DNA of 34,486 nucleotides from Syntrophaceae bacterium (GTDB lineage: Bacteria > Desulfobacterota > Syntrophia > Syntrophales > Smithellaceae): assembly GCA_009773315.1 (NCBI GenBank), contig WRPE01000033.1, positions 1 through 34,486 of the forward strand, written 5' to 3'. This document shows positions 4,696 to 32,385 of this stretch, piece after piece (position 1 is the first letter of the stretch; each line of letters begins with the position of its first letter). The notes under the pieces are model-generated. The model saw only the letters and a list, made by a program, of their open reading frames with translations. It was not told where the DNA came from and ran no database searches. The translations under genes were made by a program, and so were the position numbers.

Positions 4696-6003
4696 ATGAC
4701 CGAACAACTATTCAGCCTTCATTCTTGGCCACGGGCTATTGCCCATATCGACGGCGACGCCTTCTTTACGTCCTGTGAGGAGGCCATTCACCCGAAGCTG
4801 AGAGGGAAAGCGATCATTACCGGTGGAGAACGTGGTATTGTCGCCTGTGCCAGCTATCCTGCCAAGAAATTAGGTGTCCAACGTGGTGTCCCTCTGCATG
4901 AAGCAAGGAAAATCTGTCCGGGATTAATTATTCTTCCCTCCGATTATGAAACCTACAGTCTGTTTTCCCAGCGGATGTTTAACATTATGAGACGATTTAC
5001 TCCCGATGTAGAAGAATACTCCATTGATGAAGCCTTTTCCGACATTACCGGAATGCGCCGGGTATTGCATTCATCATACGAGGAAATCGCCCTTAATATG
5101 AAAAAGGCAATTGAAAGAGAACTGGCCATAACGGTCTCTGTCGGTTTGAGCATTACTAAGGTACTGGCAAAGGTTGCATCCAAACATCAGAAACCGGCGG
5201 GCATGACGGTGATCACGGGAAAACACATACCTGATTATCTCCGCGATCTCCCTGTTGATAAAGTATGGGGTATCGGCAATGCAACCACAAACTATCTGGC
5301 CAAGATGGGTATTCGCTATGCTTTGCAATTCGCCCAATTGCCGGAAAAAACAGTGTTGCAGAAATTTACCAAACCCGGTGTGGAAATCTGGCATGAGCTA
5401 CGCGGAAAATCAGTGTATCCCGTTACGACAGAAGAAAAGAGTTCTTACGCATCCATCAGCAAAACAAAAACATTTGCGCCGCCAACGTCCAATGCCGAAT
5501 ATTTATTTGCCCAACTTATGCGCAATATGGAATCAGCTTGCATTAAGGCTAGGCGCTATTCATTGGCAGCAAATAAAATCGTTGTCTTTCTCAAAAAAAA
5601 TAATTTCAATACAGTCGGCAGCGAAGCAAAGCTATCGCGACCCTGTGCCAGTCCTCTGGAATTTTCCGGCACTATTCATGATTTATTTAACTCTTGTTAT
5701 TGCCCCAAGGATATTTATCGGGCGACCGGAGTTGTTTTGCTCGACTTGGAGACGGATACCAATATCCAATACACACTTTTTGATAATCCGGTTCAGGCGG
5801 AAAAGATAAAAGACCTCTATAATGTGGCCGACAAGTTGGGAAACAAATTCGGGAAGCACACGGTGCATCTGGGGAGTTCCCACCTGATTGACAAACTGGG
5901 TAAGGGTCGGAGGGGGACGCCCACCATCCGGGAGCAGACTCAGATGATAGGCGAAACAAACCGCCGCCATCTGGGGCTGCCGTTGTTGCACGTAAAAGTA
6001 TAG
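4696..6003 (+). CDS. dinB: Y-family translesion DNA polymerase (DinB/UmuC type)
   Basis: 435 residues. Palm-finger signature motifs are intact: IDGDAFF (D19 as first metal ligand, aromatic steric gate at 23-24) and YSIDEAF (D111, E112). KKLGVQRGVPLHEAR, the loop VSVGLSITKVLAKVAS and the helix-hairpin-helix LPVDKVWGIGNATTNYLAKMG follow, then the little-finger domain. It copies damaged DNA with low fidelity. It lies 9 bp after a UmuD-like lexA, as in self-regulated lexA-imuB or umuDC-type cassettes, though no imuB/dnaE2 partner is here. The basic C-terminus (KGRRGTPTIREQTQ) is family-specific. No obvious ribosome-binding site, so it may depend on coupling to lexA. Confidence 0.9.
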   Translation: MTEQLFSLHSWPRAIAHIDGDAFFTSCEEAIHPKLRGKAIITGGERGIVACASYPAKKLGVQRGVPLHEARKICPGLIILPSDYETYSLFSQRMFNIMRRFTPDVEEYSIDEAFSDITGMRRVLHSSYEEIALNMKKAIERELAITVSVGLSITKVLAKVASKHQKPAGMTVITGKHIPDYLRDLPVDKVWGIGNATTNYLAKMGIRYALQFAQLPEKTVLQKFTKPGVEIWHELRGKSVYPVTTEEKSSYASISKTKTFAPPTSNAEYLFAQLMRNMESACIKARRYSLAANKIVVFLKKNNFNTVGSEAKLSRPCASPLEFSGTIHDLFNSCYCPKDIYRATGVVLLDLETDTNIQYTLFDNPVQAEKIKDLYNVADKLGNKFGKHTVHLGSSHLIDKLGKGRRGTPTIREQTQMIGETNRRHLGLPLLHVKV

Positions 6004-6118: not shown

Positions 6119-7537
6119 TCATGCTGGTTTCAGACCGTCCTTTTGGGCAACCATGAATCTTGCAGATTCATAGACGGCTCCTACAAAGGAAATGAAAATC
6201 AGGGACAACAGAGCGTAATAGTAAAAGGTAAATCCGGCAGCAAACGCTGCCAGCTTCAGCGCGACAAAGAACGCAATAGCTATTTTAGGGTACGGATACA
6301 CCAGACGATGGCTCAACCACAGACACGCAGGAACGACGATGATGGTCATCAATACAATTTTCATGATGGGTGTGATTGGCACATTCATGAATGTGAATTG
6401 CAAAATAAAAACAGGGATAAGATGAATAACATACACATTGATTGAATGTTTTGAACAAAAGGTGGTTATCGCATTTGGTTTATTGAAGAACCTTTTGGCG
6501 AAAGAAAGGAAAAACATCAAAAGAAATATGCAAGCCAGTGGTTCCAATAAATAGGTTCCCAAAAAAGTAAGTTGCGTGGAAAGGCTCATGGGCGGACGGG
6601 GCATTTTATTATCAAACAGACGATTATGCTCAGCAACTTTCATCATTTCCTCTATCGCAGGAACGCAACCGGTATATTGCAGCAGGACATATAATGCGAG
6701 AAACACAAATGCCATTGTCCCCCACAGCTGCCAGCTGCCGATATTGCCCCTGGTGAGCCACTCTTTTCTATAAGCATACAAACCGAATAAAAACAGCGGG
6801 AGGAGCACCCAGACTTGATGATTCGGAAACGATACCACTTTTCCTATTATTAAAAATGGACCTGGTGTAATACCGAGCATGGAATAATACACCATGGTTG
6901 CGGCGTAGAAAATACCGATCGCTGTGGCAAGAAGAATCGTTTGAAGTATAATTATTTTTCTGCCGTCCACTTCTTTCGGTTCACTGCTTTTTCTTTTAAA
7001 AGGCAGGCTCACTACAACAACAATCAGTGTGACAAAAAAGAGAAAGGTCAAAAACCAGGTATGCTGAAAGTTAAATGTTACGGCATTCAATGATTTTTCG
7101 GAACCGGTAAGATATATTCCAGGGATATTTAAAAATGAACGCCAGAGGTTGAGGAATGTCTCCAAATAGGTCGGAGGGACGCTGTTTAATCTTTTTAAGA
7201 GGAGTTGATAATGAATATCACCGGCGCAAAAGAGAAAAACGATGACCGGCATATAAAGGCGCAGAAATCTATTTTTTATGTACTCAAGGGGCGTAACTTT
7301 TTTCAACGATGGAAATATGAAAAGGGCGGCAATGAATAAGAGACAGGGCATTAAATAAATGGCCATCGACGATACAGCTGTCTCATAAATTCTGGACGAC
7401 CCCTCTTTATCAATTACAGCCCACCAGAACGATATCGGATGGGCGAACATCATAATAATATGCAATAGAACAACATTATACACCAGAAAGTTTCTGATAT
7501 TATCCAGATACACGAAGCGGTTTTGGTTGGTTTGCAT
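6119..7537 (-). CDS. acyltransferase 3 family integral membrane protein
   Basis: 472 residues with about ten hydrophobic helices. The N-terminus, RFVYLDNIRNFLVYNVVLLH, matches the LDxxRxxxxxxVVxxH opening of the acyltransferase-3 (OafA/YrhL-like) family, with R and H placed as expected for the acyl-transfer site. These proteins move acetyl or other acyl groups onto extracytoplasmic sugars, lipids or other acceptors. A large soluble loop carries FNFQHTWFLTFLF, typical of the central part. AAGGA upstream of the ATG is a fair ribosome-binding site. It follows the lipoprotein gene by 31 nt, so they are probably cotranscribed. Acceptor unknown. Confidence 0.8.
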   Translation of the reverse strand: MQTNQNRFVYLDNIRNFLVYNVVLLHIIMMFAHPISFWWAVIDKEGSSRIYETAVSSMAIYLMPCLLFIAALFIFPSLKKVTPLEYIKNRFLRLYMPVIVFLFCAGDIHYQLLLKRLNSVPPTYLETFLNLWRSFLNIPGIYLTGSEKSLNAVTFNFQHTWFLTFLFFVTLIVVVVSLPFKRKSSEPKEVDGRKIIILQTILLATAIGIFYAATMVYYSMLGITPGPFLIIGKVVSFPNHQVWVLLPLFLFGLYAYRKEWLTRGNIGSWQLWGTMAFVFLALYVLLQYTGCVPAIEEMMKVAEHNRLFDNKMPRPPMSLSTQLTFLGTYLLEPLACIFLLMFFLSFAKRFFNKPNAITTFCSKHSINVYVIHLIPVFILQFTFMNVPITPIMKIVLMTIIVVPACLWLSHRLVYPYPKIAIAFFVALKLAAFAAGFTFYYYALLSLIFISFVGAVYESARFMVAQKDGLKPA

Positions 7538-14410: not shown

Positions 14411-15806
14411 GACGGCCTCGTAAAAAGTCAAAGTAGTGTAACACCTTAAAATAATTTACGATATTGCAATTTTTTCCTTGACATCTATTCTTTGAAATGG
14501 TATGAATCATGTTAAATATTGATTACATAGGTGCTGACGCCATGATTCATGCCCGCGATCACAAAACGCCTTACATGATCGATCCCTGGGACTACCTGGG
14601 ACCCAAACGACGCAAACTTTTAGATCAGTCCTGGGCCGGTCTGTTCCGGGAACATATTCTCTCCGAGTTGCCCGTTCATAAGATCGCCTCTTGTTACACA
14701 GACGGATTCGGGAGGCCCAGCAAGGAGATCTTTGCCGCTTTGGGGGCCTTGATCCTCCAGCAGATGCATGACCTGACGGATGAAGAGACGGTATCACAGT
14801 TTTTCTTCAATCTTCAATGGCATTACGCCCTGGGTTGTTTTTCACTGGTAAAGCCTTCGGAATCGGCCAAGACCCTCGAGGCGGTTAGCCGGGACCTCTT
14901 TTCCCTGGTGGAGCGTTTCCGGGATAACAAGCAGGTAAAATCCCTGACCACCTTCGGCGCCCTGTTGCGGGTGTTGAAGGATCAATGCGACGTAACCGCG
15001 GCTGATGCGGGGCCGGCGGAGATGGTGTTGAAGGAGCCGAAGAAGATTTTATCGTCTTCTCTCCAGAATCCTTCCGATCCGGAAGCCGGGTATGACGCCC
15101 ACAAGGGTCAGGGATACCAGGTTCAGGTGATGGAGACCTACTGTGATTCCCCCGATGAAACGATTCGCGGGAAGACCCTGAATCTCATCACCCATGTGGA
15201 AGTTGAATCGGCATATGTCAGCGACGTCCACGCCCTGATCCCCGCCCTGGAATCGACAAAGGAGAGGGGGCTTGCCCCGGTAAAGGTCAAGCAGGGCAAG
15301 AAGAACACCTGCAGCGTTGCCTTCGCCTCGGAGCATTGCAGCGCCTGTCCACTCCGCGAGAAGTGTCCCGTCAAGCCGGGGAGGAAGCGTCATTACCTGC
15401 GTTTTGATCTCAAAACACTCAGAATTGCCGGCCGCCGGGCCAGGAAGCATACCCCGGAGTTCAAGGACAAGTACCGATGGCGCTCCGGGGTCGAATCGAC
15501 CTTTTCGGAAATGGACAAAAAGACAGGGGTCAAAAGACTCAGGGTCCGAGGTTTGTCCGCTGTGGGCTACTGCGCCCGTTTAAAGGCCATCGGCGTCAAC
15601 CTCTTCCGGGCTGCCAGGGTGAAAAGGGCGATCGATGCCCTCAGCGCCACCCCCGGAAAGCTTGCCGCCTCTGTCTGTTCCACTATTTTGGCTGTCAAAG
15701 AGCGTTTTCTGAGCCCGTGGAGCCGGCTCGGAAATATTTTTCGCCCGGTGACTAAAAATACGGCCTACGCTTTCAATATCGCCGCGTGACTTCTTACGGG
15801 GGCGTC
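14411..15806 (+). mobile_element. IS1182-like insertion sequence, internally deleted
   Basis: Terminal inverted repeats: 14411-14430 (GACGGCCTCGTAAAAAGTCA) and 15787-15806 inverted (GACGCCCCCGTAAGAAGTCA), 17 of 20 matching. The element is 1396 bp and contains one transposase gene. Higher GC than the neighbouring island. No target-site duplication is visible (left flank ACCTT, right flank ATTAT), so a flank may have been rearranged. Confidence 0.8.
14509..15789 (+). CDS. IS1182-family transposase lacking internal blocks (probably inactive)
   Basis: 426 residues, where full-length IS1182 transposases are usually 500 or more. N-terminal DUF772-like part (PVHKIASCYTDGFGRPSKE, then FFFNLQWHYAL), middle segment SLQNPSDPEAGYDAHKGQGY, cysteine cluster HCSACPLREKCPV, and the terminal DDE glutamate region YRWRSGVESTFSEMDKKTG are recognisable. 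Compared with my memory of the family, a block is missing after WHYAL (which joins straight to GCFSLVKPSESAKTL) and another after ESTKERGL (which joins to APVKVKQ). These blocks normally carry the first two catalytic aspartates. The frame stays open, so the deletions are in-frame, but the enzyme is probably dead. The start ATG is AT-rich upstream with no strong ribosome-binding site. Confidence 0.8.
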   Translation: MLNIDYIGADAMIHARDHKTPYMIDPWDYLGPKRRKLLDQSWAGLFREHILSELPVHKIASCYTDGFGRPSKEIFAALGALILQQMHDLTDEETVSQFFFNLQWHYALGCFSLVKPSESAKTLEAVSRDLFSLVERFRDNKQVKSLTTFGALLRVLKDQCDVTAADAGPAEMVLKEPKKILSSSLQNPSDPEAGYDAHKGQGYQVQVMETYCDSPDETIRGKTLNLITHVEVESAYVSDVHALIPALESTKERGLAPVKVKQGKKNTCSVAFASEHCSACPLREKCPVKPGRKRHYLRFDLKTLRIAGRRARKHTPEFKDKYRWRSGVESTFSEMDKKTGVKRLRVRGLSAVGYCARLKAIGVNLFRAARVKRAIDALSATPGKLAASVCSTILAVKERFLSPWSRLGNIFRPVTKNTAYAFNIAA

Positions 15807-16214: not shown

Positions 16215-18796
16215 GTCGCAATCCCTTCGTGGTTCAGGTCTTTGGCGTCGGCAACCGCAGCAACCGCAGCAAAGTCTGTGGCTGAACGTCGCAATCCCTT
16301 CGTGGTTCAGGTCTTTGGCGTCTTCAGCGTTTAAACGTAGTTTAAAACATAGCAAGAAACGCGTCGCAATCCCTTCGTGGTTCAGGTCTTTGGCGTCGCT
16401 ACAAAAGTTCAGTTTGATAAGGCCACTGCCATGCAGGCAGTGTCGCAATCCCTTCGTGGTTCAGGTCTTTGGCGTCTTGAAAGCGTTGAAAGCTTGCATA
16501 GTGCTTGCATTATATGTCGCAATCCCTTCGTGGTTCAGGTCTTTGGCGTCGTTGATTGACTATACACAATTGTTAAGATTGACAAATCGTCGCAATCCCT
16601 TCGTGGTTCAGGTCTTTGGCGTCATCACGAAATCAAATATTAAAAGTTTAAATATAAGGGTCGCAATCCCTTCGTGGTTCAGGTCTTTGGCGTCTCAATC
16701 TTAATCTTTGGCATTGGGATTTGCTGTTACTTTGTCGCAATCCCTTCGTGGTTCAGGTCTTTGGCGTCAGTGTTTAAGCTGACTAAAGCGGACGAAAGAT
16801 TAAGGCGTCGCAATCCCTTCGTGGTTCAGGTCTTTGGCGTCAGAAAGAGACTAAGCACTATCCAGAACGAAGAAGTCCTGCGTCGCAATCCCTTCGTGGT
16901 TCAGGTCTTTGGCGTCGCCACGGGCGCAGCGGAAAACAAACGGGTTGCCTCGGAAGGTCGCAATCCCTTCGTGGTTCAGGTCTTTGGCGTCGGCTCGCCT
17001 GGCGAGCGTTAATACGCCATTAATCAATTGTCGCAATCCCTTCGTGGTTCAGGTCTTTGGCGTCCAATTGAAGTGGACGAATAACAAACTGTCTATGCCA
17101 TGATAGTCGCAATCCCTTCGTGGTTCAGGTCTTTGGCGTCGGTAAAGTCCTAGCAGCGAAAGAAAAATGGACTGACCTGTCGCAATCCCTTCGTGGTTCA
17201 GGTCTTTGGCGTCGGGGCGCTTGTGACGGGAATAAAGGCGGCCATCGTCGGAGGTCGCAATCCCTTCGTGGTTCAGGTCTTTGGCGTCGGCGCCCTGGTG
17301 GATGAAAAGAACAAGGCCTATGGGTCGCAATCCCTTCGTGGTTCAGGTCTTTGGCGTCCGTGCCGTGTGGGCTATGAAATGACCAATGTCAAGGGTGGTT
17401 GCCGTCGCAATCCCTTCGTGGTTCAGGTCTTTGGCGTCAGGAAAAATGCTTAATCCGCCCATTACCGGCGCACGTGTTTGTTTCGTCGCAATCCCTTCGT
17501 GGTTCAGGTCTTTGGCGTCCGCCGTGAGCAAATGGAAACGATATGGAATGATTATTGATAGTGTCGCAATCCCTTCGTGGTTCAGGTCTTTGGCGTCGGA
17601 CGAAGACGCCGCAACGCGCATCATCGCAACGTTTGGTCGCAATCCCTTCGTGGTTCAGGTCTTTGGCGTCGTAGCAGATTGCGAGGGGTGCAGGAGAGCT
17701 TATGTCGCAATCCCTTCGTGGTTCAGGTCTTTGGCGTCAAGGATTATAGCCAATTAGCCAATGAGTTAATTTTTAAACGTCGCAATCCCTTCGTGGTTCA
17801 GGTCTTTGGCGTCAAAACACAAGTAATTAAAAAGGATTATAGCCAATTAGTCGCAATCCCTTCGTGGTTCAGGTCTTTGGCGTCGCATATCTGAAAATTA
17901 TCTGACCCGCGCCGCCCTTCCGGGTCGCAATCCCTTCGTGGTTCAGGTCTTTGGCGTCATTCCGACTTATAATGAATTGAAAAAGTCCCGCACGGTCTCT
18001 AGTCGCAATCCCTTCGTGGTTCAGGTCTTTGGCGTCATGTCAGAAGGAGGCAACGCTATGATGGAAGATGCTATCACAGTCGCAATCCCTTCGTGGTTCA
18101 GGTCTTTGGCGTCGGGGAAACAAAAAAAAAGCAGATGCACGCGCGAATATGCGCGTCGCAATCCCTTCGTGGTTCAGGTCTTTGGCGTCTGCGGTGCAAT
18201 CTGTACTGCGGAAGATGAAAACAATTCCTGCGTCGCAATCCCTTCGTGGTTCAGGTCTTTGGCGTCTTATTTTTCCTCCATCCTTCAAAAAAAGCTGCGA
18301 TACCGTCGTCGCAATCCCTTCGTGGTTCAGGTCTTTGGCGTCTCGCGTAGAGCTTTCCGATACAGCGACGCTTCTGGTGTCGCAATCCCTTCGTGGTTCA
18401 GGTCTTTGGCGTCAAGGGGTTGAGGGGTTTGCGTGATATGGTCAACCTTGCACAAAGTCGCAATCCCTTCGTGGTTCAGGTCTTTGGCGTCAAGAAAAGG
18501 GGAAAGTATGAATAAGCAGATTATAGTAATGTCGCAATCCCTTCGTGGTTCAGGTCTTTGGCGTCCGCCGGGTGAGTGGAAAATGACAATGAACCGATAC
18601 GGAATTGTCGCAATCCCTTCGTGGTTCAGGTCTTTGGCGTCAACCGCTTTGTCGAAAGCGGCCTTCCCGGTTTTATCAATGTCGCAATCCCTTCGTGGTT
18701 CAGGTCTTTGGCGTCTAGAGGCGACAAGATGAAGCAAATAACAAACATCATTGTCCCGGTTGTCGCAATCCCTTCGTGGTTCAGGTCTTTGGCGTC
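16215..18796 (-). CRISPR. CRISPR array, 35 repeats of 35 bp and 34 spacers
   Basis: Every repeat is identical over 35 nt as far as I can read; spacers are 33-46 nt, mostly 38-41. On the minus strand the repeat starts GACGCCAAAGACC and ends GGGATTGCGAC. The last eight bases, ATTGCGAC, equal the crRNA 5' handle known for Thermus type III systems, so transcription is right to left, away from cas1-cas2. The leader is then on the right and the newest spacers are near 18.7 kb. The repeat is free of stops in all three plus frames and two minus frames, so long ORFs across the array are artefacts. The terminal repeat at 16215 is not degenerate, which suggests the old end was cut off by rearrangement. 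Confidence 0.98.
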
Positions 18797-19103: not shown

Positions 19104-19382
19104 TCAGTAAACATAATACTCGCTGTCCGGATCGGTAAACTGTCCCTGGCCGATAATCTCCACTGTGCCCGCGCAGGGCTCACAAAGTGGAAAATATTTC
19201 ACGCCGTCTTCTTCCTCTACAATAATCTTTTCGACCCTTTCTTTCAAGCCATGAAACGCCTGTGGCGTCATGCTCACCTCAAAGATGGACTTCTGAACTC
19301 TGACGCCGTAATCAAGCATCACCTTGGCAATGCGCATCAGCCGCCGTGGGTCGGCAATATCGTAAGCAACGATCATGTTCAT
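19104..19382 (-). CDS. cas2: Cas2, second copy
   Basis: 92 residues, normal for Cas2. The ferredoxin-like beta strand MNMIVAYDIADPRRLMRIAK carries the conserved Asp8, then VRVQKSIFEVSM and a C-terminal segment with CEPCAG. GGAGG lies 9 nt before the ATG. Cas2 dimers bridge two Cas1 dimers in the spacer integrase. This copy is clearly divergent from the cas2 258 bp upstream, not a recent duplicate: for example YDIADPRRL versus YDITDPKRL, with different C-termini. It is separated from that gene by a repeat-rich segment and is closest to the leader. It could pair with the same Cas1 or be a leftover of another adaptation module. Confidence 0.92.
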   Translation of the reverse strand: MNMIVAYDIADPRRLMRIAKVMLDYGVRVQKSIFEVSMTPQAFHGLKERVEKIIVEEEDGVKYFPLCEPCAGTVEIIGQGQFTDPDSEYYVY

Positions 19383-19448
19383 GTGATTTAGCCTCCATTA
19401 CAAATCAACCGTTCCACATTTTGATTCCTGCTATTCCCCGTCCTCGAT

Positions 19449-19612
19449 CCCTCCCACCAGAGACTGTGTCGCAATAGCCAGAAATGCCATAAAATACGTC
19501 ATACCGGTGAAAGCCGGTATCCAGAACTTACCGATAATACTGGATTCCGTATCGCGCTTCGCTTGTACGGAATGACGAAATTGTAATTGCGTCACAGTCT
19601 CGCAGGGGAGGG
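19449..19612. repeat. MITE-like inverted-repeat element between the cas2 genes
   Basis: 27-nt imperfect inverted repeats at 19449-19475 and 19586-19612, 22 of 27 matching, with core AGACTGTG and CGCAAT. Inside, 19497-19577 is a second palindromic unit: CGTCATACCGGTGAAAGCC at one end and, inverted, CGTCATTCCGTACAAGC at the other. Such CGTCATtCCGG repeats are common in intergenic DNA of Proteobacteria. No coding capacity. Confidence 0.65.
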
Positions 19613-19639
19613 AAGAAACAATGTGCGCCAGTCGCGAAA

Positions 19640-19915
19640 CTAGACAATCATATAATCCAATTGCGTGACTTTCAGGCCTGTGCCGGATAACACGACTTTG
19701 TTGATGCAGCGGTTGCAAAGCTTGTAGATGCGCACAGAGTCTTTCGCAATATCCAGATTTTCACGGCAGTAGGCGCGTATTCGCTTTAATGCAATGTCGT
19801 CAATGTCGCACTCAAAAACTGATTTTTGTGTGCGCAAGCCGAATTCCTTTAGAAACCCGCGCAGATTATTAAGGCGCTTGGGGTCTGTAATATCGTAGGT
19901 GATGAGTGTGATCAT
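19640..19915 (-). CDS. cas2: Cas2, first copy
   Basis: 91 residues with the Cas2 strand MITLITYDITDPKRLNNLRG (Asp8), then LRTQKSVFECDID and a C-terminal region containing RIYKLCNRC. The ATG overlaps the cas1 stop (ATGA), so it is translationally coupled to cas1 and is the obvious partner of that Cas1. The CxxC-like KLCNRC is shared in position with CEPCAG of the other copy. Confidence 0.95.
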   Translation of the reverse strand: MITLITYDITDPKRLNNLRGFLKEFGLRTQKSVFECDIDDIALKRIRAYCRENLDIAKDSVRIYKLCNRCINKVVLSGTGLKVTQLDYMIV

Positions 19916-21075
19916 TTCAACAGCACCGGCTGATAGACCTGAGCTTCGCCTTCGATGACTTTGCGGTAATGTCCGGCCTGATAAATCAAGACATCTGCAT
20001 AGGTCAGCGTTCTTTCGGCGGGCGGGTAATAAAACTCCGTGGTCAGCTTCTTTTCAAAAGCCTCAATCACCCGTATAAACGCTTCCCGCTGGAGCTTGAC
20101 GGGATATTTCCCCATTGGCTTTGCCGCAGTTGCTTCAGCATCCATTCTTTGCTCAGGGATGTCGAAAGCGACAGAGTCCATCTCGTTGCCGGAAATCCAG
20201 CCGATGGGGTCTTTACTGACATCAGCCATCGCAATGCGCGTAATGTCCTCGCCCGATGCAATAGCCATTTCCTGCGGCTTCTCTTCGTAAAAATCATCTT
20301 TCTGCAAAATCTTTAAATTGAACAGCGACAAGGTCAGTGTATCCGCAATGATGCTCCGAAACTCTTCCATCAAATCCAGCACCAGGGAGTAACGACCATA
20401 GTCGATGGAATGCAGAAAGCCGGGATAGGGATCCAAACCCGCCACGCGCACCGCCGCGTAAACACGATTCATCAGGAAGGTGTAGAGCAGCGATAAAATG
20501 GAGTTGACCGGATCGGTCGGCGGGCGGCGAACGCGCCGCGTGAAGCTCTGCTTTTCAATAAAACCGGCCGGGAAGGCTTCAAAATACAACGCCCCGGCGC
20601 GTCCTTCATAACCGCGAATGCTGTCCACATTATCTGCTTTCTCCAAAACCGGCAACAAATCCTGAATCTCCCGCGCCTTGCGACCAGCAATGTCGGCATC
20701 ACGGCTGCGGCGAATCCGCATGAGCAGGGTGGCCATGTTTGTCAGCTTTCCGGCGACAACCGAGCGCGCCATCCTCACGGCAAAAGCCGTATCATCCAGC
20801 AGCGCGTATTGCTTTTTGTGGAGAAATACATTGCGAGATTCAGGCGAGGCCATTCGCCCTAGATACCGCCCGTTCTGCGTCAGAAAGACCGTGTCGATTT
20901 CGTGCCGCAGAATTTGCGCAAGCGCGCTGTGCGTGATTTCCACGTTGCCGAACAGCACAATCTGTTTGAGCTTGTAGGTAAACAATGTGTTGTAGGTGGC
21001 CTCACCCTTCTTGACGAGCAGATGACGGCCTTCCTTCACAATGCGCGCCCCTTGCGTGTTGACATAAACGACCAT
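19912..21075 (-). CDS. cas1: Cas1 spacer integrase
   Basis: The ATG ending at 21075 is preferred to the one 30 nt upstream because AAGGAGG lies between them and the protein then begins MVVYVNTQGARIVKEG, as Cas1 proteins do. 387 residues, somewhat long; the C-terminal part has an insertion (about residues 250-320, rich in Asp/Glu). Catalytic residues are in place: E157 in GYEGRAGALYF, H222 in DPYPGFLHSID, and D234/E237 in LVLDLMEEFR. It joins new spacers at the leader end of the array with Cas2. It has its own putative promoter, with the palindrome also found before cas10. Confidence 0.95.
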   Translation of the reverse strand: MVVYVNTQGARIVKEGRHLLVKKGEATYNTLFTYKLKQIVLFGNVEITHSALAQILRHEIDTVFLTQNGRYLGRMASPESRNVFLHKKQYALLDDTAFAVRMARSVVAGKLTNMATLLMRIRRSRDADIAGRKAREIQDLLPVLEKADNVDSIRGYEGRAGALYFEAFPAGFIEKQSFTRRVRRPPTDPVNSILSLLYTFLMNRVYAAVRVAGLDPYPGFLHSIDYGRYSLVLDLMEEFRSIIADTLTLSLFNLKILQKDDFYEEKPQEMAIASGEDITRIAMADVSKDPIGWISGNEMDSVAFDIPEQRMDAEATAAKPMGKYPVKLQREAFIRVIEAFEKKLTTEFYYPPAERTLTYADVLIYQAGHYRKVIEGEAQVYQPVLLK

Positions 21076-21118
21076 TGCTTTTATTTCCTCCTTCCCACGT
21101 TTCATGCGTGTGGGAAGT

Positions 21119-21216: not shown

Positions 21217-22446
21217 TTATAACTGAGGAAAATCAAAATAATCTGTCATCTGGCAAAAGCCGGTCACCGTTTCTAATGTATCGTTCGCCGTGCGCTCATT
21301 GACAGGCTGTATGCCGTGCGCCAAAATAGATTTATTGCGGCTGCTCTGAATATTTTTAATCTTTGCTTCGTACTCATAAAAGCGCTTTCCTGCCTCATGG
21401 CCTGCGGCACGAAGAACTTCATAGGTTGCCTGCAACGGCAGTTTCATCATCTCTGTGTGAGGGTCGCGATATTTGCGCATAAATTCATTATGCAGTTCCT
21501 GTGGTATTTTGGCCGGTTTTACTTTATCCGTTGTGCATCCTATTTTTTTCTCAAAACAGATTTGGCCGTATAACTCGAGCGCACGATAGATACGGGCGGA
21601 CGCGTCATCATACCTTTTATCCGCGATTCGCCTGCGTGCGTTGTTGATCAATTCTTTAACCAGGATCAAGTCAAATAATTGCATGCCGTTTGTCTTCGCC
21701 ATAATTTCGGAAAGAAAATCAATATGACCTTTTAATTCATCACTGAGGCGTTGATAGTTTTCATTGGTATAGTGTTTTAAATAATCGGACAATTGCACCG
21801 CGCCTTTTTTCAGACAATCGAGCGCTTCTTTATGACGAAATTGTTCCCACAGAAGAAAACCATTCGCCAAGGGCCGCACAAACTGGAAGAAAGTACTGAT
21901 CTGCGTTGGCAACTCTCGCTTGCACAAATCAAGAATCTGAATAACAGCGGAATAACGACGTGCATTGAACAAAATGACGACCTGACGTCTTTCCTCCTCG
22001 GCAAAAGCCGACCAGGGATTCATGTCTGAATACATTTTTTCATGGCCATTTTGGACAACACCCAACCCATCCTTTGACCTTGTTTCACCCCCGACATAAT
22101 TAAAGTCATAGGCATAACCGACCGTGGCCAGAAGAAGGGCAGCCGACATGACTTTTGTACCGCCTGTGTAATCGACGATGATGTCCTGTTCCGGTATCTC
22201 ATGCCTGGCCGCCCTGTCCACGCAGCGCTTGGCGGCCTTGTAACACTCAAACAGCGAGTTGGGATTTTCCGTGATCTCGGATTCAATCTTGTTCGGCTTA
22301 TAAACGGCGCCTTGCAACACCTCACCCGTTTTTAAAATAGAGTCATGCGACGCAAAGAAGATCAGGGTTTCCGGCTGATGTTCGGCAATACTTTTTTTAA
22401 GTGGTTCCGGCGAACCGCCAATGGACATAATCATTAACTTTGACAT
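21217..22446 (-). CDS. csm6: Csm6-like CARF-HEPN ribonuclease (TIGR02710-type)
   Basis: 409 residues. N-terminal CARF domain: MSIGGSPEPLKKSI, then VDYTGGTKVMSAALLLATVG (DYTGGTK at 92-98), the ligand-binding signature of this family. C-terminal HEPN domain with catalytic R370 and H377 in RNKSILAHG (R-x6-H). Cyclic oligoadenylate made by the Cas10 palm domain would bind CARF and switch on non-specific RNA cleavage by HEPN. It sits between the nucleotidyltransferase gene and cas1. A 39-codon paralogous N-terminal fragment overlaps its start by 13 bp, so expression may be coupled. Ribosome-binding site weak (AAGGG, 9 nt). Confidence 0.88.
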   Translation of the reverse strand: MSKLMIMSIGGSPEPLKKSIAEHQPETLIFFASHDSILKTGEVLQGAVYKPNKIESEITENPNSLFECYKAAKRCVDRAARHEIPEQDIIVDYTGGTKVMSAALLLATVGYAYDFNYVGGETRSKDGLGVVQNGHEKMYSDMNPWSAFAEEERRQVVILFNARRYSAVIQILDLCKRELPTQISTFFQFVRPLANGFLLWEQFRHKEALDCLKKGAVQLSDYLKHYTNENYQRLSDELKGHIDFLSEIMAKTNGMQLFDLILVKELINNARRRIADKRYDDASARIYRALELYGQICFEKKIGCTTDKVKPAKIPQELHNEFMRKYRDPHTEMMKLPLQATYEVLRAAGHEAGKRFYEYEAKIKNIQSSRNKSILAHGIQPVNERTANDTLETVTGFCQMTDYFDFPQL

Positions 22447-26236: not shown

Positions 26237-27604
26237 TTAAAAATAGCCTTTCAGTTTATCCTTTGCTTTGCTTTTCTTGAAGTCACCGCCCATGTGTTCC
26301 TTGACGAATACGGCGAATTGCTGTTTGTCTTCATCCACTGCAAGCTCCTTTAAGGCATTGTCAATATTGGAACACAAACGCCCTGCATCGTTTGCCTTGA
26401 TGACTTTTATTGCATCGCACCACTTTTCAAGGGCGGTGCGCACGGCTACCGGCGGTTTTTCTTCAGCCGGTTTTATTTTCTGCTCGAGTAGACCCATTGA
26501 CACAGTGGCAACTGCTGGTTTGTCCATAGGAAGATCATATGGTGTTTCCAAAACGACCCAACCAAAGGGCCGCAGGGTACTTCTTGAGCCAGATTCCGGT
26601 TTACGTTCCTCTGCTGCAAGCCAGAAGGTTCCAGCACCGATTGATGATGTTGCCGCCTGCTCGCCGCGACCACGCATGATCTTTATTTTCCGGTGTCCTT
26701 CTATGGTCAGGCATTCTGCGCCGGAATGACGTCCTAGCCGAAGAAGATGTCCATCTTTCAATGGATCATATTTTGTACCCGTGAGGCTGACAGCAGCCAG
26801 TTCCCTATCTTCACGCTCTTTTTCATCTGTGAAGAACATCATAGCATTTTCAAAAAGAAGCTTCTGTGAAAGGGGTCTTTCAATTCCCGCTCCGGCAAAT
26901 GGTTCATCAATTGTAACCGATCCGGAAAAAATAGCGCCCGGTTCGATCACTTCGAGGATCTGATAAGGTCCACGCGCTGCCTGATTTGATGGTTTTTTCT
27001 TTTCATTGATGGCGTAGCAGATCTTCGTTTTGACCCCATATACGGGGATAAAGTCGGACACCTTGAGCATCCGCAGGGGATCGCTTTGAAAAGAACCCTT
27101 CAGGAGATCTTTTTCAAGATCTTTCCCTTTGCGCTCATTGGAAGGAAAAACTTTAGCCGCCCAATTGAGATAAGCTGTTCGCAATGCACCCTTGACGGCT
27201 GATCCGGGAATGTAGGGCAACTGCGAGTTAACATTGAATGCCGTCCGGTTGATGGTAAACTGGTTCATATCATTCTGCAGCCGCCTGTCCCCTATTTTCA
27301 TTCCTAACAGGGCTTGATAATGGTCAATAAACCCCTTGCTGAGATTCACGCCCAAGCCGGTCACAGGTTTGCCGCGCATAAATTTGTAAAGTTCCAGTAG
27401 AGAGTCGATTGTGCCTCTGGCGCATATTTGGCTGAATAGGACTTTGTCTTTATCAGACAGATTGTTTATAAAATTAATTGGATCAAATGAAATCAGCGTC
27501 TGGGCGCTTTCATCCACAACAAAACCTGCGGGCTCATAGACCTCATCACACCCAACGTGGATCGGCGCCAATGTTCGGAGGAAGAAATTATTATGACTCT
27601 TCAT
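26237..27604 (-). CDS. csm5: Csm5, type III-A RAMP (Cas7-like) protein
   Basis: 455 residues. N-terminal RAMP motif FFLRTLAPIHVGCDEVYEP, IPGSAVKGALRTA (132-144) and, later, LLRLGRHSGAECLTIEG identify Csm5. It caps the 3' end of crRNA in the Csm complex and recruits nucleases for crRNA maturation. It overlaps csm4 by 4 nt and ends the cas10-csm operon. 26127-26236 beyond it holds the next gene's promoter. Confidence 0.92.
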   Translation of the reverse strand: MKSHNNFFLRTLAPIHVGCDEVYEPAGFVVDESAQTLISFDPINFINNLSDKDKVLFSQICARGTIDSLLELYKFMRGKPVTGLGVNLSKGFIDHYQALLGMKIGDRRLQNDMNQFTINRTAFNVNSQLPYIPGSAVKGALRTAYLNWAAKVFPSNERKGKDLEKDLLKGSFQSDPLRMLKVSDFIPVYGVKTKICYAINEKKKPSNQAARGPYQILEVIEPGAIFSGSVTIDEPFAGAGIERPLSQKLLFENAMMFFTDEKEREDRELAAVSLTGTKYDPLKDGHLLRLGRHSGAECLTIEGHRKIKIMRGRGEQAATSSIGAGTFWLAAEERKPESGSRSTLRPFGWVVLETPYDLPMDKPAVATVSMGLLEQKIKPAEEKPPVAVRTALEKWCDAIKVIKANDAGRLCSNIDNALKELAVDEDKQQFAVFVKEHMGGDFKKSKAKDKLKGYF

Positions 27605-28626
27605 CTTTCAACCTCCAATCTAAAAGGTAGATAAACGGCGTAACCCTGCACGACGGTTCTTTCATCACTCTTCGATACGCCTGTAATGGCCCGACCCATA
27701 TAAGGTTTGGCAAAACCATTCTTCTCCTTCGGCATAAAGACAGCCCCCTCGTCTGCCATGATGACAGGGTTTTTAAAAGGATTGACTGAACGAGCCAAGG
27801 TGTCGCCGTGTTTGCCGAAACGGACAAAAGGGGTAAAGTAACTTGCAGCATATGCACCTTTTTCCGGTACGACGGGGGACAGGACATAACAGGCATCCGG
27901 CGTTTTTGCAGCGGGTAAGGCAAGTTCTTTAAAGCCACACGCCGTGAAGCGTCCGCCGCCCGTGGATGCATCTCTTCCAAAACCGGTTTTCCCGATCCGC
28001 TCAATGCCTGTGCACACCCGCTCAATATCGGTTGCATCCTCATCGATCAGAATGAATAAGGCCAGTTCTGCATTGGGAATAAAACACATGCCCAACTGTT
28101 CGTATGGCGCAAATATGCCAAGCCCCGTGGTCATAGTCGAGCGGTTGATGGTGTTGTGCTGCTGGTCAAAGTCACGGGTATAGGAGATTGGCTTCTCCTG
28201 CCGGTTACGGGACGCAACTTTTCCAACAGCCAGTGAAGCGAGTTCCCTATCAGTTTTGTATACGGCATCTTTCAGAGTCATAGACAGGTTTTCCGCCAGG
28301 AGCATCCACTTCAACTTGGTCTTTTCCTTTCGTTCCTCCATCTGTTTACATCTGCCTAAAGCTTTAGATGCCGGGAAAAGAAAAGAAACGGGAATGTCCG
28401 GTTTTTTTACTGCATAACGGGAACTGGCATCGGACAACATCGGCCAGGCAGATGAGAAAACGGCAAATGGTTGCTTCGGGTATTGGGCGATCCACTTATC
28501 CAGACCACCATTTAGTAGTCCTGGGTCGTAAGCCGCCTGCCAGCAGAAATGGCCAAAGACAGTGTCCCCTTTTAAGGGGGTGCCAAACCATCCATCAGGT
28601 CTGATCGTGATCTCGTAGAGTTTCAA
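27601..28626 (-). CDS. csm4: Csm4, type III-A RAMP (Cas5-like) protein
   Basis: 341 residues. N-terminus LYEITIRPDGWFGTPLKGDT is the Csm4 opening with the GTPLKGDTLFG-type loop, and the glycine-rich loop GFGRDASTGGGRF (215-227) is present. Csm4 binds the crRNA 5' handle, AUUGCGAC here, and anchors Cas10. It overlaps csm5 by 4 nt and follows csm3 by 18 nt. Confidence 0.93.
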   Translation of the reverse strand: MKLYEITIRPDGWFGTPLKGDTVFGHFCWQAAYDPGLLNGGLDKWIAQYPKQPFAVFSSAWPMLSDASSRYAVKKPDIPVSFLFPASKALGRCKQMEERKEKTKLKWMLLAENLSMTLKDAVYKTDRELASLAVGKVASRNRQEKPISYTRDFDQQHNTINRSTMTTGLGIFAPYEQLGMCFIPNAELALFILIDEDATDIERVCTGIERIGKTGFGRDASTGGGRFTACGFKELALPAAKTPDACYVLSPVVPEKGAYAASYFTPFVRFGKHGDTLARSVNPFKNPVIMADEGAVFMPKEKNGFAKPYMGRAITGVSKSDERTVVQGYAVYLPFRLEVER

Positions 28627-28644: not shown

Positions 28645-29349
28645 TTAAAATAGTTTCAGGTTGTCAAATTTTTGTTGAATTTCACCATCGGCAAACTGAA
28701 AAGCAACTTTTCCGTAACCCCGGCTGCCGCTTCCGCCGAGTGCATCCATTTCCAGCAATTTTAAACCACGAAGCAAGTAATCAAAAAGTTCATCCTCATT
28801 TTCGTTTAGAAGCTTGAGCGTAACGGCGAAATCGAATTCCACATCGGCGGGCACCCGTTCCGTAAAACGCGGGTTCTGTGCAGTTCCCGTAATGCGGTCG
28901 ATACTGTTTTCCGATTTGACTTCAGTGAGACTGAGCCTTTCACGATAAGCCTTGTTGCGCCATTCCTTCGTCAACTGACAGTCTGAAAAGGACACACGCG
29001 TCGGTCCGATTTCCAGTTCCTCAACGATTTCCGGATGTGAGCCACCCGTGCCGAAAACCTTAACGATTTTGATGGCCTTCTCCTTTTCAGTATCGGTCAG
29101 CTTTTTAATGAGATCGGCCTGAACAGGATGTCCCTTGGATTTGATCATCAGGCCGCTTTCCATCTCCAACAGTGATCGCACCTTGCCCTTGATGGAAGAT
29201 CCAGGGATGTAAGGCTCCTGAGTATGGGGATGTTTAACGACGGGGTTATCCGTTCCACCAATGTGCATTTCCGTGTCGCCCGCGCCAATGTGCAGACCGC
29301 TCTTCAAAACGATTTTCCCTTTGATTTCCTTTATGTCAATAAGCTGCAT
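28645..29349 (-). CDS. csm3: Csm3, backbone RAMP and target-RNA nuclease
   Basis: 234 residues. Cas7-like: LKSGLHIGAGDTEMHIGGTD with catalytic D34 in GGTDNPV, IPGSSIKGKVRS (48-59), and the glycine-rich loop GGSGSRGYGK (205-214). Several Csm3 copies line the crRNA and cleave the target RNA at 6-nt intervals through this aspartate, which is intact. It follows csm2 by 9 nt. Confidence 0.95.
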   Translation of the reverse strand: MQLIDIKEIKGKIVLKSGLHIGAGDTEMHIGGTDNPVVKHPHTQEPYIPGSSIKGKVRSLLEMESGLMIKSKGHPVQADLIKKLTDTEKEKAIKIVKVFGTGGSHPEIVEELEIGPTRVSFSDCQLTKEWRNKAYRERLSLTEVKSENSIDRITGTAQNPRFTERVPADVEFDFAVTLKLLNENEDELFDYLLRGLKLLEMDALGGSGSRGYGKVAFQFADGEIQQKFDNLKLF

Positions 29350-29358
29350 ATGTTCCTC

Positions 29359-29766
29359 CTACGAAGCATCGTATTGTTTGTAAAAACCCATGAAAGCCTC
29401 GAACAGATTGGTAAAGACAGCAAGATCTTCACGTCCGCGAATCTGACCGATCGAGTCTTTCATGAAGGCTGTAAAATTCCCTGTTACCAGCTTGCGCCCT
29501 TCCGCATAGGCTGTCTTGGCAATAAGCATGTTGACGTAGGGGATGATGTTGTCCCATGCCTCCGCATTTGTCCGGTTACTTGCAATGGAGTTCAGTCGCA
29601 CAACCTCGTCATAGAATTTACGGAGTTGCGTGCGCTTGTTCCGTTCGAGCCGTTGCCTGTCATTCAGTCCTGCTGCATGAATCTCTTTCGCCAGTTTTTC
29701 CGCCTTTTCGGAAAACAAGGTCGGTTCAAGCAGACGGCCTGTCGGATCTTTGTAAAATTGAATCAT
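29359..29766 (-). CDS. csm2: Csm2, small subunit of the type III-A complex
   Basis: 135 residues, all-helical. LSKEIHAAGL-like helix (AKEIHAAGLNDRQRLERNK), then TQLRKFYDEVVRL and the C-terminal FTNLFEAFMGFYKQY agree with Csm2 (Cas11). It forms the inner filament along the crRNA-target duplex. It lies between cas10 (9 nt) and csm3 (9 nt). Confidence 0.9.
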   Translation of the reverse strand: MIQFYKDPTGRLLEPTLFSEKAEKLAKEIHAAGLNDRQRLERNKRTQLRKFYDEVVRLNSIASNRTNAEAWDNIIPYVNMLIAKTAYAEGRKLVTGNFTAFMKDSIGQIRGREDLAVFTNLFEAFMGFYKQYDAS

Positions 29767-29775
29767 CTTTTCCTC

Positions 29776-32385
29776 CTATCTGTTGTTGTAAATGACATCC
29801 CAGAGGGCAATCCTGAGACTGCTTCCATGTTCTTCCAGCCAGCGCGCTGCCTGAGTGAATTCCTCTTTCATACGCTTCTTTTCATTCTCGTCCCCTTTGA
29901 TCGTTTTGCCGATGTTCCGCTCCGTCGAATAGCGGAACATCGCCCGCCATTTCAGACATTCCATGTCTTCCACGTGAATCCCCTCCGGACAGCTCGCCAG
30001 CAAAGTCTTTTCCCGCGCGGCCATGTCGATAAAATCATTCAAACGATAAATCATCGCGCTGTTCACTATGTTTCTCTGTTGCCATTTATCGAACTGCTTT
30101 CTGATTTCCTGCAGGGCAAAGAACTCCTTCCATTCGACGGTTTCCGAAAAGATGGTTACCCTGGCGCGCCCAGCATCCTTGGACATTTTCAACGAGGTTT
30201 CCGCCGCTTCTGACATTTTATCGATTGGCGCATGGGGCTTCTGCAGACTGAGCCCGGCGGAAAAATGAAGTTCAGAATTTCCACAAGTATAAGCGGAAAA
30301 ACGGGCGTGAAGCAATGCGACTAGTTCAATCATCCTGTTCCAAGGGCCAATGAGAAAGAGGTCGTCGCCACCGGCAAAAACCGTATAGACATCGCGAAAA
30401 CGATCATCGGTTTTCAGCAAATGCGGCAAATAAAGACAGAAGAAATAATTCAACTGTCTACTCAGGGTTGCGATACGGGAAAGAGTTATCTCGTCCTTTG
30501 TAAGTCCGCAGGACATGAGAAGACCGAGCTGATCAACATCAGCCTTGAGAATCCCCAGGGCTTCTATTCCCTTGTAGCCCCCGTCAGTTTGATTCATCGC
30601 CTTGTTGGCGATGTGTTCGAATGTCTTGGGTGTTCTCAATTGCAATTGATCAATTCGTTCCTCTTTTTTCCGGTCACTCTTTTCTCCCTCAAGCAGTCTT
30701 TCATCTTTCAGATCATCTTCTTCGTAAAAAGGGATATAACCGTTTATAAACTTCGCCGTTACATTCCGGGAAATACCGCTTTGCGGGTCAACGGCAATAT
30801 CCCAGTACTTCAAGAGCTGTCCGCTTCTTGCCAACTGGGTAAGCTTGCTGTCGTCATCCTGAAACATCAACTGATAAAAACCAAAGATAGGCTCCATCAG
30901 TCTGTTCATTTTACTCTTCAGGTCTGCATCCACCGTTGTTATCGCAATCCGTTCATTCTTGACCAGGTTTTCACCGAGAAAAATATGATCATGGCAAATC
31001 CTGCAACAGTAACCGCCATCGTCCCGATCTTTCGTCCCTTCACTGGAAGGCCTTTTGCCACAGTAAGGACAGAGCGGCGGCTTGAGACCGTTTCGAAAGT
31101 CGTCGAGATAGCCGCCTACAACACCGCCAAAACGATCAATATCTATTTTTGTTAGTTTTCTTTCGGCCATTTTCTCGTTTAGGGAGTCACGTATGTCTGC
31201 AAACTTCCCTCTTACAAAGTCGTCCGGTTTTACCGTCAATTGTGTAATGCCCATAGAGTTCTGCCCGAAGGAAACTTTGATCAACCAGTCATTTATCAGA
31301 TGCTCCGCACGTGCGATTGCTTCTTTAGCCGCTTTCGTGTTCGGCGCAATGATCATGAATTTCCCGGCAGCATTCAGGACGATGGATGAAAAGGGAATGC
31401 CAATTTCCCTGCAGATAAGATCCGCCGCCAACTCCGAAAAAAGCGATACGGAGAAGGAGCGCCCACGGAGGATTTTCGCCCGGTGACGTCCCGCTTCGCC
31501 GTTGTCACTGGAGATAAAAGCCTGAATCCCGTAAAAATCGCCGCCAATCAACAGAAACTTTTCTGCGCAATAATCGCGGATAGCATCAATGCCCATATCA
31601 TCTGTCTCGTGGTGGTAAACATACAGGGCGGTGGCCAATGCCGCCGTCATGCGGACATGATCATAGAGCGAAACATCGGGAACAACTTTCCCTGCACGTG
31701 CTGCTGGAATCGCTGAAGTATAGATTAGCATCAGGCTGTCGAAGTGCTCAAACCAGAGTTCAACGCTGTCATTTCGATGAAGCAGTTTTTCCAGGGCAAA
31801 GATAAACTCGTCAAAAAGTTTTTTGTATTCCTCCAGTGCTTTTTCGTTACTGGATGGAACCCCTTGGTTCCTTTGCTGCGGGAAAATATTGTGCGGTGTC
31901 AGTTCCGTTAAGGGATAGACATACTGCTGTTGTATCGGATTCATCTGTTTTTCGGAATCCGTTGGTTTTAATTTTTCAAATAGTGGTAACATTCGTGTTT
32001 GTTTGTAATCTTTCGGCGTGATGGCTTCATTGTATTCCTTATCGAAGTTAGCGCGATCCCACCCGCTGCTGATACGGTCGGCCATGGCAATGATCCACTG
32101 CATCGGCGTTTTCGGTAGATGATGGCCAGCTGCCAGATTTATGAAGCTATCTTCCAAACCCCACTGCGCTTTATTTAGTTGCCGGGGAAGCAATTTTTCG
32201 ATCTGTTCAATAAAAGCAGCTGTGTAAACAGCGTGCCGATGGGTATGCACCCCATTATAGAATGGTTGATAAAGTCCTGCGTTATTATTTAGATACTCTG
32301 GTGCAACATACATCGCGTCTTCTGCCAATTTCCCAATATCATGCAGCAGCCCGGCCAGTGCTACCTTCAAGACCGTATCGTTCAT
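29776..32385 (-). CDS. cas10: Cas10 (Csm1), HD nuclease and cyclic oligoadenylate synthase
   Basis: 869 residues. N-terminal HD domain with H15-D16 in LLHDIGKL and a second histidine pair in AGHHLP (88-89). First palm with GDFYGIQAFI (282-291), zinc finger with C439/C442 and C460/C464, and second palm with the active cyclase motif FAGGDDLFLIG (GGDD 672-675). A C-terminal helical domain completes it. Both catalytic centres look intact: DNA cleavage by HD, and ATP-to-cOA synthesis by GGDD. cOA would activate Csm6 in the same locus. GGAGG lies 6 nt before the ATG. It is first in the operon cas10-csm2-csm3-csm4-csm5, with a palindromic box upstream. Confidence 0.97.
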   Translation of the reverse strand: MNDTVLKVALAGLLHDIGKLAEDAMYVAPEYLNNNAGLYQPFYNGVHTHRHAVYTAAFIEQIEKLLPRQLNKAQWGLEDSFINLAAGHHLPKTPMQWIIAMADRISSGWDRANFDKEYNEAITPKDYKQTRMLPLFEKLKPTDSEKQMNPIQQQYVYPLTELTPHNIFPQQRNQGVPSSNEKALEEYKKLFDEFIFALEKLLHRNDSVELWFEHFDSLMLIYTSAIPAARAGKVVPDVSLYDHVRMTAALATALYVYHHETDDMGIDAIRDYCAEKFLLIGGDFYGIQAFISSDNGEAGRHRAKILRGRSFSVSLFSELAADLICREIGIPFSSIVLNAAGKFMIIAPNTKAAKEAIARAEHLINDWLIKVSFGQNSMGITQLTVKPDDFVRGKFADIRDSLNEKMAERKLTKIDIDRFGGVVGGYLDDFRNGLKPPLCPYCGKRPSSEGTKDRDDGGYCCRICHDHIFLGENLVKNERIAITTVDADLKSKMNRLMEPIFGFYQLMFQDDDSKLTQLARSGQLLKYWDIAVDPQSGISRNVTAKFINGYIPFYEEDDLKDERLLEGEKSDRKKEERIDQLQLRTPKTFEHIANKAMNQTDGGYKGIEALGILKADVDQLGLLMSCGLTKDEITLSRIATLSRQLNYFFCLYLPHLLKTDDRFRDVYTVFAGGDDLFLIGPWNRMIELVALLHARFSAYTCGNSELHFSAGLSLQKPHAPIDKMSEAAETSLKMSKDAGRARVTIFSETVEWKEFFALQEIRKQFDKWQQRNIVNSAMIYRLNDFIDMAAREKTLLASCPEGIHVEDMECLKWRAMFRYSTERNIGKTIKGDENEKKRMKEEFTQAARWLEEHGSSLRIALWDVIYNNR

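Follow-up and report, generated by a model that had tools for sequence, protein, structure and literature searches.

The locus described here raises the question of whether a natural type III CRISPR array stores spacers of one orientation only, that in which the crRNA can pair with mRNA, and whether it goes beyond this and favours the places where translation starts. It comes from a Syntrophaceae bacterium (assembly GCA_009773315.1, contig WRPE01000033.1), and we refer to the whole stretch of 34,486 nucleotides that was analyzed as the window. A sequence-only reading of this DNA had found spacers spanning a ribosome-binding site plus a start codon, all oriented to give antisense crRNA, and had proposed that the system may select or retain transcript-antisense spacers near translation starts. 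Orientation and proximity to starts are separate claims, and they are treated separately in what follows.

The type III-A locus and the direction of its array

On its minus strand the window contains a CRISPR-Cas locus of type III-A, with the array located beyond two cas2 genes; the system is an ordinary one of its type, and the bacterium belongs to the Smithella family. On this strand the cas10/csm1 gene (29776..32385) has HD and palm domains (TIGR02578, PF22335, PF18211, PF01966), matches TIGR02578 with an E of 8.5e-186 and contains GGDD in its translation. Further along the minus strand are found csm2 (29359..29766; PF03750), csm3 (28645..29349), a RAMP gene (PF03787) named from its domain and the gene order, csm4 (27601..28626; TIGR01903) and csm5 (26237..27604; TIGR01899), both with matches above cut-off, a gene for a Csm6-like CARF/HEPN protein (21217..22446; PF09670, PF22205, TIGR02710), cas1 (19912..21105; TIGR00287) and the pair of cas2 genes, the first at 19104..19382 and the second at 19640..19915 (both TIGR01573). 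The members of this tandem (19104-19915), which lies between cas1 and the leader, differ from each other. A cas6 gene (PF10040) was found outside the window, on another contig of the same genome (C5:24537-24902, L093), and the ORF adjoining it looks CARF-like by eye.

The only Pfam domain of Cas1 is PF01867, with no reverse transcriptase domain, and the gene is the sole cas1 match in the 2.98 Mb genome assembly. A reverse transcriptase fused to Cas1 or located beside it, the feature by which RNA-acquiring RT-Cas1 type III systems are recognized, is absent. The genome has two RVT_1 matches, both away from the contig of the window (C30:11091-11777, L088, and C8:2575-3114, L089), and the ORFs beside both of them have what we take to be a DUF1566-type or formylglycine-enzyme look, as in diversity-generating retroelements.

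In the array (16215..18796) a 35-nt repeat occurs 35 times without variation, separating 34 spacers that are 33-46 nt long. A DDE transposase gene (14509-15789) is located ca. 0.4 kb from its leader-distal end. Full or near-full solo copies of the repeat, outside any array seen, are present in the same genome around C69:51818-51852 (L045) and C36:75804-75841 (L046), the latter in or beside a gene that looks transposase-like by eye. Further solo copies were seen in L047, which ends at the contig end, and in L048, from a genus-mate; the C69 copy and that of L048 are located directly behind one common upstream flank.

The direction of transcription can be approached through the flanks. From 18797 onward, to the right of the array, the sequence can be aligned with the right flanks of the related arrays L030, L035 and L038 (66-82% over 50-158 nt), and those of L030 and L035 align additionally with that of L043. 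A separate right flank is common to L028, L037 and L039; those of L044 and L051 resemble no other. The left flank of the window's array gave no alignment with the flanks of related arrays. We therefore regard the segment 18797..18954, common in sequence and position to three related arrays, as a putative leader on the minus strand. On that strand the repeat ends in ATTGCGAC, similar to the ATTGAAAC motif that PMC8482600 reports for type I and type III repeats. The shared leader on the right side and the ATTGCGAC repeat end together point to transcription of the crRNAs from the minus strand, as the sequence-only reading had assumed, and their 5' handle would be ATTGCGAC. If so, the useful strand of a spacer, with which the crRNA can pair, would be its plus strand.

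Strand bias in the array of the window

The spacers of the window are purine-rich on the plus strand, with a purine fraction that averages 0.573 and exceeds 0.5 in 26 of the 34 spacers (p 0.0002-0.003 in three tests). A codon model was built from 116 genes of the host and 68 of phages. It was right for 78% of held-out pieces of spacer length and assigned 24 of the 34 spacers to the plus strand; the most likely sense fraction was 0.999, with a lower bound of 0.81. When the codon score was compared with dinucleotide shuffles, which retain the purine bias, it reached a z of 3.9 on the plus strand and -0.5 on the minus strand, and none of 300 shuffles attained the plus value. The statistics thus show that the standing array is ca. 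80-100% mRNA-strand in the plus reading. That many spacers read on the plus strand as plausible protein pieces, as had been remarked before, is true but a weak argument alone, since frames are open nearly as often on the minus strand (32 of 34) as on the plus strand (33 of 34).

Two adjacent spacers, s21 and s22 (17739..17849, plus strand), are staggered over one site. They share 18 nt, and one plus frame is open through both, which suggests that one virus site was sampled twice, at staggered positions.

Strand bias in related arrays and in a type I-E-like control

The repeat family was represented by 19 stretches, mostly from Smithella, Syntrophaceae and other deltaproteobacterial assemblies, and several of the related arrays adjoin genes that have the sequence look of cas1 or csm genes. 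Identical spacers were counted once, loci with too few repeats were left out, and the 31-repeat array of G090 is excluded from the family arrays. The 345 distinct spacers of the relatives had a purine fraction of 0.579 and, by the codon model, a sense fraction of 0.88 (0.82-0.94), with a shuffle-corrected codon signal of z 12.8 on the plus strand and z 3.6 on the minus strand. After correction for composition the sense fraction was 0.88 ± 0.05 (358 spacers from 8 arrays, window included), a rough value because the virus taken as yardstick matters (1.80 for the IMG/VR loci, 0.92 for vir555); single arrays ranged from 0.62 ± 0.27 to 1.05 ± 0.15. L085, which holds copies of L051, was excluded from the composition-corrected and rank analysis and from the comparison of overlapping spacers.

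Overlaps between spacers that are not identical, and the silent changes between such spacers, give a view of orientation that does not depend on a codon model. At all nine overlap sites, one of which is s21/s22 of the window, the spacers were stored on one strand (13 of 13 pairs at E < 1e-4). If all 41 non-identical pairs at E <= 0.05 are considered, 36 were on the same strand and five on opposite strands, all five of them weak (E >= 0.001). One of the sites, L027_6/L027_22, translates into pentapeptide repeats; two places in one gene may be involved. Six hand-picked overlapping pairs were also compared for silent changes; the pairs of the SD-bearing region shared by L027_9, L028_9 and L039_28 were omitted, as this region was taken to be non-coding. 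One of the six was gapped and gave no result. Among the five ungapped pairs, four had only silent changes in a plus frame, a minus frame being equally silent in two of these four, and the fifth was silent on neither strand.

As a control, 20 regions around cas3 genes from the order of the window were collected, and 13 arrays were found in them, nine of which we take to be type I-E-like from the look of their repeat. The 146 spacers of these nine arrays showed no bias (residual 0.075 ± 0.18, purine fraction 0.486), and the difference between type III and I-E-like arrays was marked (p 1e-7). The strand bias is thus not a by-product of the pipeline. The other four arrays of the cas3 regions (113 spacers), which stand outside the control, had residuals of -0.66, -0.64, -1.17 and -0.34, leaning to the opposite side or to neither; two of them were of unknown orientation.

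Protospacers

For the 34 spacers of the window we found no protospacer, only chance-level or repeat-derived matches. The whole array, compared by blastn with phages and plasmids, gave best E values of 0.8 and 9. Six peptide patterns derived from joined spacer translations retrieved 16 stretches from IMG/VR, none of which was confirmed, and DNA patterns for s34, s25 and s31 had 0 matches there, as did three patterns built from the shared sites of the relatives. In the own genome the search recovered the array itself and a pair of solo repeats; beyond these there was a single 21-nt match at E 0.295. Among 155 genomes of the order, the best foreign match to the 34 joined spacers (E 7.6e-4) ran across a spacer joint, and 35 viral loci yielded short matches only. 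For this reason the orientation of the spacers in the window rests mainly on the codon and purine statistics.

The arrays of six relatives (L027, L028, L039, L043, L044 and L051) were searched against phages. No match was obtained for L043, L051, L039 and L044, and L028 had weak matches only; L027 had no match among plasmids. The only convincing phage record for the spacers of the relatives was Caudoviricetes sp. vir555 (L094, BK063671.1). Spacer 12 of L027 is identical over 41 of 41 nt to a segment of its exonuclease gene (6196-6236), in sense orientation and 198 nt past the start. For spacer 20 the agreement is 31 of 34 nt (5001-5034), within a small hypothetical gene from that cluster of vir555, again in sense orientation and 72 nt past the start. 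Another L027 spacer had weak matches (E 0.1-0.5) to Erf-like or other recombination genes of three phages, in sense orientation in the two that were opened. The codon signal, the overlaps, the mostly silent changes, the protospacers of this relative and the unbiased I-E-like control all agree with the transcript-antisense orientation that had been read from the sequence.

The recorded host of BK063671.1 is Methanomicrobiales, yet it holds an exact protospacer of L027, the type III array of a deltaproteobacterium. Either the host label is wrong or the bacterium stores the memory of a virus of an archaeal neighbour. Spacer matches across domains are the subject of PMC10159854, as far as the consulted part of that paper goes.

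Start-like sites in the spacers

The three spacers from which the proposal had started are exact in both coordinates and motif: s25 (18037..18078; AGGAGG, 7 nt, ATG), s31 (18492..18530; AAGGGG, 5 nt, ATG) and s34 (18716..18761; AGAGG, 7 nt, ATG), all on the plus strand. In a duplex-energy scan (anti-SD duplex <= -7 kcal/mol, an ATG and a frame open to the spacer end) five of the 34 spacers scored on the plus strand. These were the three just mentioned, with -11.7 kcal/mol for the SD of s25, together with s32 (18566..18606), which had been listed as a weaker fourth, and s30 (18414..18456), which had gone unlisted; s30, s31, s32 and s34 have an SD-like site plus ATG, and s34 is the leader-proximal, newest spacer. 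On the minus strand the scan gave 0 of 34, which bears out the earlier statement that the opposite strand has none. In all five, the frame of the ATG is also open leftward to the spacer edge, so that each ATG could encode a methionine within a gene, preceded by a purine-rich stretch. In seven of 35 virus loci a helicase-like gene contains a core of s30 (16-17 nt), placed at one of its internal methionines; the match is at chance level and has no upstream extension (21-22 of 43 nt). Stretches similar to s25 in G056 were discarded, as they have the appearance of the start of a host gene that has the SD in common with s25.

Virus rates matched to the composition of 379 spacers predict ca. 1.6-1.9 start-like spacers in the window, against the five observed (Poisson P ca. 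0.02-0.04, post hoc). All five are among the newest ten spacers. In the relatives such clustering was missing (two of the 70 newest spacers vs. 14 of 254 older ones), and clustering at the leader end was dropped as a candidate.

The wider repeat family provides a larger sample. Among its 379 spacers (window included), 22 carried an SD plus ATG on the plus strand and one on the minus strand at -7 kcal/mol; at -5 kcal/mol these figures were 37 and six. As controls we used sense strands taken from our own ORF map and matched for purine and GC content, plus shuffled spacers. At -7 kcal/mol the closest controls predict 18.0 (35 IMG/VR loci) and 21.6 (vir555), and the distant ones 10.6 (host), 9.3 (three Klebsiella/Vibrio phages) and 9.3 (shuffled spacers). 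At -5 kcal/mol the expectations were 40.1 for the IMG/VR loci, 39.5 for vir555, 27.0 for the host, 25.4 for the three phages and 25.5 for the shuffled spacers. There is therefore no excess of start-like spacers in the family over the composition-matched controls nearest to the likely targets (22 vs. 18.0-21.6), although there is one over the distant controls. Without matching for composition, the two viral controls (IMG/VR loci and vir555) predict ca. 12 and 15, and the purine matching may over-correct because the SD is itself purine-rich. Annotated starts make up only 44% of the -7 kcal/mol hits in vir555. One SD-bearing region, that of L027_9, L028_9 and L039_28, is targeted by three arrays. 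A preference for starts, if real, is probably ca. twofold or less. The strong enrichment that was our first impression, obtained with the three-phage control, was dropped after the closer controls. Selection or retention near translation starts, the second part of the sequence-only proposal, was thus not borne out, the count in the family being that of viruses of like composition and fewer than half of such hits being annotated starts in vir555. Among the papers listed by narrow literature searches on start codons there was none in which natural spacers are aimed at ribosome-binding sites.

How the bias may arise

Base pairing of the crRNA with a transcript is what sets the type III effector, Cas10-Csm, to work. 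Cas1-Cas2 without a reverse transcriptase would probably take spacers from both DNA strands, and among these the cells would retain the ones that give a crRNA antisense to viral mRNA, since no others would protect. Spacers across ribosome-binding sites or their look-alikes would be found because the arrays sample purine-rich coding strands of viruses. We hold it to be highly probable that these elements go together, i.e., a type III-A system, acquisition from both strands, retention of mRNA-antisense spacers and start-like sites by sampling. In 8 arrays the bias was lower among the ten newest spacers than among those acquired earlier (p 0.016; Spearman p 0.11; post hoc), a weak indication in the direction that retention predicts. 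Published work on an RT-free type III system also favours retention (PMC7515739). On the other hand, type III spacers have a purine fraction of 0.579 vs. ca. 0.53 in the sense strands of the virus controls; this is beyond what strand choice alone gives and counts against the joint account. The spread between single arrays, the weak rank trend, the five start-like spacers of the window (somewhat more than expected) and the protospacer searches that yielded nothing for its own spacers count against it as well. As for the wording select or retain, its transcript-antisense part stands, and selection and retention are inseparable here.

The other explanations have to be weighed against this one. 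That the asymmetry reflects base composition alone, unrelated to transcripts, agrees with the purine-rich plus strand, but we find it very improbable in view of the codon residual after shuffling, the changes that are mostly silent in the plus frame, the sense orientation of the true protospacers of a relative and the missing effect in I-E-like arrays of the same order. It is also improbable that the system favours ribosome-binding sites or start codons, by blocking translation initiation or by catching exposed leaders. The one-sided counts (five vs. 0 in the window, 22 vs. one in the family), the SD-bearing region hit by three arrays and the -7 kcal/mol excess over the three phages, the host genes and the shuffles are what such targeting would produce. 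Yet the closest matched controls predict nearly as many sites, less than half of the vir555 hits are annotated starts, internal methionines are possible in all five spacers of the window (the core of s30 falls at one in virus loci, though at chance level), both real protospacers are inside genes, and the relatives lack the clustering among new spacers.

A different possibility is that the bias is made at acquisition. Acquisition from RNA was rejected because Cas1 has no reverse transcriptase. It could instead be that the orientation is fixed when Cas1-Cas2 captures a fragment or inserts it, for example if the coding strand, being purine-rich or displaced, always came to lie on one side, so that the enzyme itself orients the spacers, with a preference for purine-rich, mRNA-like strands and a purine peak in mid-spacer. 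Such orientation would explain the purine excess above the prediction from strand choice, and it fits the mild purine peak in the middle of the spacers (central minus outer third 0.039, p 1e-5; 0.030, p 0.04, in the I-E-like arrays), the shared orientation of the adjacent, staggered s21 and s22, and the RT-free type III adaptation of Streptococcus thermophilus, enriched near start codons according to what could be consulted of PMC9048733. Nonetheless, we consider it unlikely. Cas1 is RT-free, and the two RT genes of the genome are on other contigs with DGR-like neighbours; the unselected spacers of the RT-free type III system of Thermus come from both strands (PMC7515739, in part); the codon signal survives removal of composition; and the start enrichment reviewed in PMC9048733 concerns, in the portion consulted, the encoding strand and does not contribute directly to defence. 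If it were true, transcript-antisense guides would be made already at acquisition, beyond retention by selection; unless the bias arises in this way, the picture of type III immunity is unchanged.

Comparison with known systems

What the arrays add is a demonstration, for which very few protospacers are needed, that type III-A arrays in nature are made up almost entirely of useful-strand spacers, the I-E-like arrays of the same order serving as negative control. The codon residual, the orientation of overlapping spacers and the silent changes can be used together to read strand bias where the viruses are unknown.

Strand bias in type III systems has already been published, and the family of the window is a clear new example of it. 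In the arrays of Vink et al. (2021), as described in the available part of PMC8482600, type III spacers are on the coding strand, so that the crRNA pairs with mRNA, in 65% on average and in 88% for the III-B system of Moraxella. The family of the window shows the same coding-strand targeting; here, however, the value of ca. 88% was obtained mostly without protospacers, from codon and overlap statistics. Thermus thermophilus (Artamonova et al., 2020; PMC7515739, consulted in part) likewise has a Cas1 free of reverse transcriptase and a strand bias in protective spacers, which is explained there by selection during infection. That work was an infection experiment, whereas ours reads standing natural arrays only. 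In the III-A system of Streptococcus thermophilus (Zhang et al., 2021, as cited in the accessible part of PMC9048733), spacers are enriched ca. 10-50 bp downstream of start codons. This enrichment is on the encoding strand. The start-like sites in the family of the window, by contrast, occupy the useful strand and show no excess over the closest virus controls. Finally, the RT-Cas1 type III systems of Marinomonas and Fusicatenibacter (PMC9048733, same part) have a reverse transcriptase fused to Cas1, which the Cas1 of the window lacks, and both kinds of system alike feed type III effectors that target RNA.
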